From Acetohalobium arabaticum DSM 5501 (GTDB lineage Bacteria; Bacillota; Halanaerobiia; Halobacteroidales; Acetohalobiaceae), in assembly GCF_000144695.1 (NCBI RefSeq), contig NC_014378.1:1152781-1216780 (forward strand): 64,000 bases of DNA, given 5' to 3'. Shown piece after piece: positions 23,873 to 53,919 of the stretch. Numbering within the stretch: the first letter of the stretch is position 1; each line of letters opens with the position of its first letter. The translations under genes were made by a program, and so were the position numbers. Under the pieces are notes generated by a model. It saw only the letters and a program-made list of their open reading frames with translations. It ran no database searches and was not told the DNA's origin.

Positions 23873-24160
23873 GTCACCTTCTCCCCATTAAAATGGGAAG
23901 CTTGGGAAAATCATTTTAGTGTAAGGTGTCCAGGGTAAGTTAGTTATCTAGCTACGTTATGGTAGTTACGATACCTTAAAGTGCCTCCCTAGCTTTAAGC
24001 TCTATCGCCTAGCATTAAATAACTCAATGGGAGTACAATAGAGTAGTGTGTTAAGCGTAAAAGCTACCATAACTTACCCGAAGGGAGCGTAGACATTACT
24101 TAAAAGTCTACCGTTACCTTATTTTAAGAGAGTAGATACCTTATCTACTTAACCTAAACC
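23873..24160 (+). ncRNA. Probable omega-RNA (HEARO-type) upstream of iscB
   Basis: The 300 bases before iscB have no credible ORF but several complementary segments: GGGTAAGTTA (23933-23942) with TAACTTACCC (24070-24079), extended by TGGTAG (23960-23965) with CTACCA (24064-24069); hairpins GTAGAC/GTCTAC (24089-24111) and AGTAGATA/TATCTACT (24131-24149). IscB proteins work with an RNA encoded immediately upstream whose 5' guide comes from sequence flanking the element, so here the guide would read from the interrupted gene, ending near 23872. Exact ends are not visible. Confidence 0.75.
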
Positions 24161-24178
24161 AAAAAAGGATGTGTTAAA

Positions 24179-25516
24179 ATGGTATTTGTGCTCAATAAAG
24201 ACAAAACTCCACTTAATCCTTGTCATAACGGTAAGGCTAAGTGGTTATTAGATAATAATTATGCTGTAGTGCATAAGATACAACCTTTTACAATCAGACT
24301 TAAAAAGAAAGTTACTAATCCTAATTTGAAGGACTATACACTTAAAATTGACCCTGGGAGTAAAACAACAGGGTTAGCTATCAATAACGGCAGTCAAGTA
24401 GCGTTTTTAGCTAATTTGCATCATCGAGCTGATACTATTAAGCAAAACTTACAAACCCGTAGAGAACATAGGCGGTTTAGACGCTCTCAATTGAAGTATA
24501 GAGAAAAACGTTTTGATAATCGTAAGCGGGGAGATAACTGGTTACCACCGAGTGTTGATTCTATAGTTAATAACATTAAAACCTGGGTGCAGCGGTTAAA
24601 GAAGTTATGTCCTATCAGCAAAGTAGTAGTTGAAATGGTAAGATTTGATACCCAGAAAATGCAAAATCCTGAGATCGAAGGTATAGAGTATCAGCAAGGC
24701 ACATTACAAGGTTACAATGTAAGAGAATATTTACTTTATAAGCACAATCACACTTGCCAATACTGTGGGGGCGAAAGTGGTGATCCAGTTTTGGAAGTTG
24801 AGCATAAAATTCCTAGCTCACGTGGCGGTACAGATAGTATCAAAAACCTTACTCTATCATGCAAGACTTGTAATCAGGATAAAGATAATCGAACACTTAA
24901 AGAATGGTTACAGGACTTAAAAGAGCAGGATTTCCGCAAAAAGCTACCTAAAGTTCGCTACAAAAATGTAAAGCAGATACTTGAAAGTAAAGTAGATATT
25001 TCACTTAAAGATGCAGGTAGAGTCAATAGTTATCGTTATAAGTTGTTAGATCAGCTTAAAAGCATTTGTAGCAATATTGAAACATCAACTGGTGCTAAGA
25101 CTAAGTATAACCGCAATCAAGTAGCTGAATTAGAGAAAACTCATTATTTTGATGCGTTATGTGTTGGGACTGCTAAGCAAGAATATAGTTTTCAAAAAGG
25201 GTTTAAAGTGTTAAGTATTAAAGCAACAGGTCGAGGTACAAGACAGCGTACTTTGCTTGATAAGTATGGGTTTCCAAGAGCTTATCGTTCACGTAATAAG
25301 TATGTAGATAACTTTAAAACAGGCGATTTAGTTAAAGCAGTAATTCCTAAAGGTAAAAACAAGGGAGTTTACTTTGCTAGAGTATCTACTCGCAAAAGTG
25401 GTTACTTTAGGTTAGATTGTTTTAATGGCAGTAAAGTTGATGGAGTAAATAGTAAATATTTAAACTTACTACAACGAGGAGCTGGTTATAGCTATAGTTT
25501 TGAAGATATAGCTTAA
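24179..25516 (+). CDS. iscB: IscB RNA-guided nuclease (RuvC plus HNH)
   Basis: A 445-residue IscB, the presumed ancestor family of Cas9. Domains in order: N-terminal PLMP-type segment (VFVLNKDKTPLNPCHNGKA), RuvC-I (LKIDPGSKTTGLAI, about 55-70, catalytic Asp), Arg-rich bridge helix (RREHRRFRRSQLKYREKRF, about 94-112), RuvC-II (KVVVEMVRFD, catalytic Glu), HNH with zinc pairs CQYC and CKTC around EVEHKIPSSRGG, and RuvC-III (THYFDALCVG). All catalytic positions I can identify are present, so it looks active. It cleaves DNA matching the guide of its omega-RNA and helps keep the element in place. Ribosome site AAGGATG. Confidence 0.93.
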   Translation: MVFVLNKDKTPLNPCHNGKAKWLLDNNYAVVHKIQPFTIRLKKKVTNPNLKDYTLKIDPGSKTTGLAINNGSQVAFLANLHHRADTIKQNLQTRREHRRFRRSQLKYREKRFDNRKRGDNWLPPSVDSIVNNIKTWVQRLKKLCPISKVVVEMVRFDTQKMQNPEIEGIEYQQGTLQGYNVREYLLYKHNHTCQYCGGESGDPVLEVEHKIPSSRGGTDSIKNLTLSCKTCNQDKDNRTLKEWLQDLKEQDFRKKLPKVRYKNVKQILESKVDISLKDAGRVNSYRYKLLDQLKSICSNIETSTGAKTKYNRNQVAELEKTHYFDALCVGTAKQEYSFQKGFKVLSIKATGRGTRQRTLLDKYGFPRAYRSRNKYVDNFKTGDLVKAVIPKGKNKGVYFARVSTRKSGYFRLDCFNGSKVDGVNSKYLNLLQRGAGYSYSFEDIA

Positions 25517-25723
25517 AGTCAGAACCGTCGCCATTCCTCTCCTCAATAAATTAAGGAGTCTCCTGGCGACATTTTCATGAAATTAAAGAAATATTAGCTG
25601 AAAAGGAAGATATATGCAGCTGTGAACAGTGCCGGAATGATATACTTGCTTTAGCTTTGAATAAAAAAGGCTCCTCATCATGATAGATGATTTATAGTAA
25701 AAGAGATAATATTTATTTTGATA

Positions 25724-53317: not shown

Positions 53318-53415
53318 TATTTACTGAAAATTATGTTTATATCTTAGAAAATAATCTGTAACCCTCCCTTTTTCAAATGGGAGATATAAGGATTAGCAAA
53401 TATTAATTTAAACAA

Positions 53416-53444
53416 TTGATATTTGCTCCATAATTTATTATAAT
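53416..53444 (+). promoter_or_regulatory. Promoter of the structured RNA
   Basis: TTGATA (53416-53421), 17 bases, TATAAT (53439-53444) is a good sigma-A type promoter that points into the structured region, with no ORF after it for 480 bases. A start of transcription at about 53451 is expected. Confidence 0.7.
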
Positions 53445-53451
53445 ATAGATG

Positions 53452-53760
53452 TAAATTACAAGTGAATATTGGAGGTTGCAGTAGCTGAACCTCTACTGTG
53501 TAAAATATTCAGGGTGCTCGTTGTAGATAGAAGACACTAAATCTTCTAGTAAGCACTTATAGAGGTGCTTACACTTCTATCTTGAGCAATAAAAGTATCT
53601 CTGAGTCTAGCATCTATGCTAGATAGGAGTAGTGGCGTTGGACACACTGATTGGGTAACTTGCTTGATATTATGGGTAATTCCCATAAAAGCAAGCGACC
53701 ATGAAGCTCGGTAATTCATTACCGAATAAAGAAGTTGTAGGACAGAAGTTAATATTATGG
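53452..53760 (+). ncRNA. Putative highly structured non-coding RNA, about 300 nt
   Basis: No ORF with a ribosome site is present, but nearly every segment pairs: TGAATATT/AATATTCA (53463-53470, 53504-53511) enclosing GAGGTT/AACCTC (53472-53493) with a loop-3' pseudoknot CAGTA/TACTG (53479-53483, 53494-53498); TGCTC/GAGCA plus AGATAGAAG/CTTCTATCT (53515-53588) enclosing GTAAGCAC/GTGCTTAC; TCTAGCA/TGCTAGA (53606-53623); GCTTG/CAAGC with ATGGG/CCCAT (53662-53696); TCGGTAAT/ATTACCGA (53708-53725). It has its own promoter. I cannot match it to RNase P, tmRNA, SRP or 6S RNA. It might be a raiA-type or another known family, or new. Confidence 0.75.
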
Positions 53761-53793
53761 ATTTAAATTAATAGAACATTAATGATTTATTTT

Positions 53794-53838
53794 ACCCTTT
53801 TGACTATTTTAAAATAGTTAAAAGGGTATTATTATTGT
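53794..53838 (+). terminator. Long hairpin downstream of the structured RNA
   Basis: ACCCTTTTGACTATTTT (53794-53810) pairs with AAAATAGTTAAAAGGGT (53811-53827), one mismatch-type pair. The tail ATTATTATT is a weak U-tract. It probably ends the RNA transcript. Confidence 0.6.
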
Positions 53839-53872: not shown

Positions 53873-53919
53873 CCTTTAATTTCAATACTCATAAAGTAGT
53901 ATTGAAATTAAAGGAGAGG
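53873..53919 (+). promoter_or_regulatory. cwlD: Hairpin that hides the cwlD ribosome site
   Basis: CCTTTAATTTCAATACT (53873-53889) is perfectly complementary to 53898-53914, whose end, AAAGG, is the first half of the cwlD Shine-Dalgarno AAAGGAGAGG (53910-53919). In an mRNA that starts upstream, the site would be half buried in a 17-pair stem. If the gene is read from a promoter within or after the left arm, the block would be absent. Confidence 0.6.

Follow-up and report, generated by a model that had tools for sequence, protein, structure and literature searches.

The window analyzed here is a 64,000-nucleotide stretch of the Acetohalobium arabaticum DSM 5501 genome (NC_014378.1, positions 1,152,781 to 1,216,780), and our subject is a structured RNA encoded in it between a PrcB-like gene and cwlD. 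A preliminary description, made from the sequence alone, had proposed an autonomous structured RNA at this place. That proposal holds, and the structured RNA is real. It lies on a mobile element of the IS200/IS605 type (class A in our naming) that carries no open reading frame (ORF), and it has two parts, a conserved 5' domain and a 3' half that corresponds to the omegaRNA of TnpB. The features of the locus are as follows (TAM, target-adjacent motif).

53344-53347, + strand: putative target/TAM tetranucleotide TTAG, left of the element; the same at other copies
53348-53728, + strand: class-A ORF-less IS200/IS605-type element, delimited by repeat boundaries; flanks differ between all copies
53364-53383, + strand: left-end hairpin CTCCC/GGGAG; CACCC/GGGTG in the corresponding position of tnpB copies
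53416-53444, + strand: sigma-A promoter within the element, TTGATA (53416-53421), 17-base spacer, TATAAT (53439-53444); expected start about 53451
53459-53516, + strand: conserved 5' RNA domain, stem P1 around an H-type pseudoknot, from covariance models R1 and R2 and double changes
53464-53470 with 53504-53510, + strand: P1; double changes in four of seven pairs, innermost pair usually unformed
53473-53477 with 53488-53492, + strand: pseudoknot stem S1; 90% of cells paired, double changes at one pair
53478-53484 with 53493-53499, + strand: pseudoknot stem S2; 96% of cells paired among 47 distinct sequences, double changes at seven of seven pairs
53517-53589, + strand: class-A "middle" hairpin region, in which GCTC...GAGC closes an inner GTAAGCAC/GTGCTTAC hairpin
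53590-53728, + strand: TnpB omegaRNA scaffold and right end, from 84 to 86% identity to tnpB 3' sequence and a conserved fold; 3' tip deleted here
53729-53770, + strand: host-gene remnant (3' tail), by alignment to an intact 124-amino-acid frame in same-genus genome G001 (L012 1180-1551)
53793-53828, + strand: terminator-like hairpin of the host operon; same place in element-free G001

The sigma-A type promoter was found as described. The roughly 300 bases said to be free of ORFs are so almost throughout, the single listed frame being one of 57 amino acids on the minus strand. The fold of 53451-53745 reached -95.1 kcal/mol against a shuffle mean of -69.5 (z = -4.72), and none of 200 shuffles was as good, in agreement with the earlier statement that fold density here exceeds background. 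A search of the region against the Rfam 15 covariance models returned no family at its curated gathering score. The reported lack of fit to RNase P RNA, tmRNA, SRP RNA, and 6S RNA was thus upheld, while membership in raiA, which had been suggested, found no match, nor did OLE, ROOL, or GOLLD. The top subthreshold match was sot0042 (E = 4.7e-5, 53593-53736); it served as a lead only, and the subsequent tests are independent of it. The sot RNAs are archaeal transcripts whose sequence overlaps tnpB genes of the IS1341 type at their 3' end.

A dispersed element without a reading frame

The element recurs about 10 times in its own genome at 86 to 97% identity, with the same ends throughout and with flanking sequences unrelated to one another. 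Including TTAG, the window copy occupies 53344-53728 (385 bases), so that the repeated unit begins about 70 bases to the left of the start first given for it. TTAG adjoins the left end in eight of the nine other copies, the ninth being degraded, and it also precedes the left ends of tnpB-bearing copies wherever a left end could be located. Intact class-A copies measure 386 to 421 bp, mostly 387 to 389, and end in GTAGTTCAC. The window copy lacks the final ~9 bases of this right end and is therefore probably immobile, a dead copy with a defective guide. Dispersed copies, the absence of an ORF, and ends and target shared with autonomous copies identify the element as a nonautonomous one of the IS200/IS605 type, resembling the palindrome-associated transposable elements (PATEs).

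At the window site, between the PrcB-like gene and cwlD, G001 has the intact 124-amino-acid frame and no element, and in the window this host frame is reduced to its tail and the terminator hairpin. The hairpin had been described as the end of the RNA. It lies outside the element, and because it is kept in G001 without the element, we assign the terminator to the host operon. Farther downstream, just ahead of cwlD, 53873-53914 is a long near-perfect inverted repeat (AATTTCAATACT...AGTATTGAAATT) that is possibly an operator or a terminator.

The setting among spore-wall genes had been called suggestive, and the element could in principle have become a domesticated host small RNA tied to those genes. 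The window copy does adjoin cwlD, and a decayed copy has been kept at an orthologous site by mtnK in three Virgibacillus-like genomes. The window site is empty of the element in G001, however, so that a close relative has no site-specific copy, and the other copies lie at unrelated sites. We regard domestication as very improbable: the window copy is an insertion, one of about 10, rather than a dedicated single-copy gene, and its setting is incidental. The copy by mtnK (L117, L125, and L129) is found in V. chiguensis, V. proomii, and "Roseburia sp. 1XD42-34," the last of which looks like a mislabeled Virgibacillus-like genome.

Another copy (L048) interrupts a glutaredoxin-like gene, in antisense orientation to it, and the frame continues across the joined flanks. 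This copy bears on the idea of a mini-IStron, in which a self-splicing ribozyme resembling group I introns would make up the 5' part and excise the element from host transcripts. IStrons do combine a group I intron with an IS605-type element (PMC4227781), and the window RNA contains pseudoknots. Against this, no group I intron was detected in the window or in the other classes, the element RNA had no match to other Rfam families either, the structured part begins about 110 bases into the element, and splicing could not rescue the gene interrupted in L048, since the element there is antisense. A mini-IStron is accordingly a far-fetched explanation. A piece of a group II intron (group-II-D1D4-3) lies near a solo element in another genome (G052, L010 2260-2431).

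The TnpB omegaRNA in the 3' half

About 16 TnpB copies in the same genome match the window element over its last 139 bases only, at 84 to 86% identity, and in these copies the matching segment lies immediately 3' of tnpB. In each, the segment starts just after the tnpB frame (433 amino acids if intact) and ends at GTAGTTCAC. Pfam assigns the class-A TnpB to OrfB_IS605 and the Cas12f1-like TNB domain; a search against solved structures gave no match at E = 0.01. One locus of the same genome (L054) has tnpB and an intact TnpA (Y1_Tnp, E = 6.6e-43) together with the class-A omegaRNA. An alignment of 15 related sequences supported a common fold for the segment, with 98% of cells paired, double changes in 13 of 43 pairs, and a covariation of 0.24 against at most 0.08 when slid. 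By these sequence comparisons, the 3' half is a TnpB omegaRNA and right end. The scaffold reaches the right end of the transposon in intact copies, where the guide would follow from the flank, but not in the window copy.

A stand-alone RNA like HEARO or omegaRNA had been among the possibilities raised. It was right in kind, as the 3' half shows, and wrong as to HEARO: RF02033 matched the window only at 23873-24093, not at the element RNA, and the 5' ends are not alike. The string GTGTAA...CAGGGT, which the 5' domain shares with HEARO, was considered as a sign of homology and rejected; HEARO has two hairpins there, and the 5'-domain model R2 gave no hit in the true HEARO of the window with the threshold relaxed to E = 10. 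That HEARO RNA (Rfam E = 2.4e-26) is followed by an IscB-like ORF (23873-25517), a second RNA-guided system in the window.

A portable 5' pseudoknot domain

The 5' domain (~58 bases) begins 14 bases past the -10 box. The H-type pseudoknot that had been drawn by complementarity is indeed there (CAGTA/TACTG with AGGTT/AACCT), and compensatory changes in relatives back it strongly. In a first alignment of 12 sequences, which was not fitted to a covariance model, S2 was paired in 100% of cells and showed double changes at six of seven pairs. With 47 distinct sequences, aligned to the model and hence biased towards structure, P1 showed compensatory changes as well, double changes reached 11 of the 14 modeled pairs, and covariation was 0.61 against at most 0.09 when slid. 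No Rfam family covers this domain in the window copy or in other classes. The 5' half is therefore a separate conserved RNA domain. The "middle" region that follows in class A is missing in class F (L119) and varies too little for a covariation test.

These results bear on the possibility that the element is a plain relic resembling PATEs or miniature inverted-repeat transposable elements, in which only the ends matter, for recognition by the transposase, and the RNA structure is a functionless leftover. Ends-only IS605 elements moved in trans are known, including those of the relative Halanaerobium hydrogeniformans (PMC7290912), and the window copy lacks a complete right end. Yet compensatory changes occur in the omegaRNA part as well as in the 5' domain, and an internal promoter stands ahead of the latter, neither of which would be expected of inert filler; nor does the 5' domain lie at the ends recognized by the transposase. 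We consider a mere relic unlikely.

Of 81 related genomes, 15 contained the domain; the figures were 22 of 159 within a Virgibacillus family and 11 of 398 across the phylum, all of them samples from capped searches. A sequence-pattern search of genome contigs gave 16 loci, including Virgibacillus and a Clostridiales metagenome-assembled genome. Neither this pattern nor the Virgibacillus-type element matched viral contigs or phages, and the window element had no match among plasmids. A Virgibacillus-type element does occur in a plasmid record named Klebsiella grimontii (CP079755.1; L260 4001-4235), where neighboring genes look Bacillus-like; the record is probably contaminated or misassigned.

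Among 65 domain-bearing loci (256 kb), none had tnpB or tnpA beside the domain, and none of 16 class-A tnpB-bearing copies contained it; the two are mutually exclusive in distribution. Class-specific segments follow the domain, and the better-preserved copies terminate with a hairpin of IS605 type plus TTCAC, TTGAC, or GTCAA. For each of classes A to D, the 3' part of this segment recurs behind tnpB in TnpB-bearing elements. At least four TnpB lineages, with a mutual identity of only about 20 to 34%, are thus represented among the omegaRNAs to which the domain is joined, and on this sequence comparison we regard the domain as a portable module of protein-less elements.

It could instead be part of the scaffold recognized by TnpB and not a separate cap. 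An omegaRNA-like module or right end does always follow it in the better-preserved copies. The tnpB-bearing copies do without it, however, and the same domain is attached to omegaRNAs of lineages as dissimilar as those above; a scaffold role seems to us decidedly unlikely. How the module may be shuffled is illustrated by a hybrid element (L049 2083-2470; G000:C1:23083-23469) with class-C flanks, a class-A body, and a junction inside the shared 5' domain. It appears best explained by nested insertion and then recombination between two 5' domains, which could be one way of shuffling.

In Bacilli loci (L190, L212-L218, and others), P1 of the domain is immediately preceded by an rRNA-type boxA (TGYTCTTTGAWAACT). 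Every Bacilli-family locus checked matched it at 11 to 15 of 15 positions, most at 14 or 15, and conservation by position was far above chance. According to PMC7862264, citing Stringer et al., boxA increases the expression of CRISPR arrays. Given this effect and the position next to P1, loading of Nus factors would, by analogy, be a reasonable role for boxA in the Bacilli elements. The boxA of the host's own rrn is GATCTTTGAAAACTGAACATTG, and the host rrn leader AAAACTGAACATTG agrees with the start of the 5' domain ACAAGTGAATATTG at 11 of 14 positions, a likeness that is only suggestive.

A probable free-standing guide RNA and its relatives

The window RNA is probably a stand-alone omegaRNA on a nonautonomous IS200/IS605-type element whose only product would be a guide RNA, with TnpA and TnpB supplied in trans and a 5' module that stabilizes the guide or secures its transcription. 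The element would be moved by TnpA from related autonomous elements, and its RNA, whose guide would be a copy of the element's right flank, would load TnpB. TnpB so guided would target the empty donor site, the element would be restored after excision, and its retention would be favored. Guide-directed retention of this peel-and-paste type is established for TnpB. The 5' domain would replace the upstream tnpB message by providing a start of its own together with RNA protection or secured transcription; that it protects the 5' end or secures transcription is likely. Where boxA precedes it, in Bacilli, Nus-factor antitermination could act as it does for rRNA.

Several observations weigh against this explanation. 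Where a RuvC-II Glu is usual, the TnpB proteins of class A (L051 2675-3976) and class C (L176 1784-3061) have Gly; classes B and D retain Glu. In these two enzymes the site may therefore be rearranged or the nuclease dead; for class A, this would alter the role of the guide. Six regions searched for a tnpB partner of the Virgibacillus class yielded none. The nine other copies mostly have no clean empty-site orthologue in G001, where intergenic DNA is too diverged. Finally, boxA is unrecognizable in the window copy (7 of 15 positions), as in most Halanaerobia copies, and antitermination therefore cannot be claimed for the window copy.

Tentatively, and with less confidence, we suggest something more general: that the module (boxA or a diverged relative, P1, and the H-type pseudoknot) is widespread and undescribed, and has repeatedly been joined to omegaRNAs of different TnpB lineages to give free-standing guide-RNA transposons. 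It might act as a mimic of rRNA leaders, ensuring that the guide is transcribed in full and shielding its 5' end. Stand-alone guide RNAs would uncouple RNA-guided nucleases from their own genes, a step towards trans-acting guides like CRISPR RNAs. With a covariance model and mutable stems, a module common to unrelated TnpB lineages offers a handle on such elements, both to locate them and to study the stabilization and transcription of guides made apart from the nuclease message.

PATEs and stand-alone omegaRNAs are themselves already known kinds (PMC7290912, PMC9581776); for a 5' pseudoknot domain shared across TnpB lineages and excluding tnpB, we found no description in the open-access literature. 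The PATEs of H. hydrogeniformans (PMC7290912) and Haloquadratum (PMC3119063) are likewise protein-less, have IS605 ends, and are presumably mobilized in trans. The former consists of a 28-nucleotide left end, the last 58 nucleotides of tnpB, and the right end, and its description mentions neither a promoter nor a shared 5' RNA domain (PMC7290912). IStrons (PMC4227781) are also composites of IS605 ends and a structured RNA but contain a group I intron, which the window element does not. Leaders with boxA, as in rRNA operons and CRISPR arrays (PMC7862264), resemble the Bacilli elements, where boxA stands directly before P1, and differ from the window copy and most Halanaerobia copies, where boxA is not recognizable. 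The stand-alone omegaRNAs of IscB (cited in PMC9581776) are guide RNAs without an adjoining nuclease gene that act in trans; their nuclease family and RNA are different, and the HEARO 5' end has no H-type pseudoknot. Another close system is the TnpB omegaRNA, with sot0042 as its Rfam relative. The window element shares its 3' half, the right-end hairpin, and TTAG in the left flank as a putative TAM, and autonomous relatives have the same segment directly after tnpB, whereas the window-type RNA has its own promoter, no tnpB, and, at its 5' end, a pseudoknot domain absent from tnpB copies.
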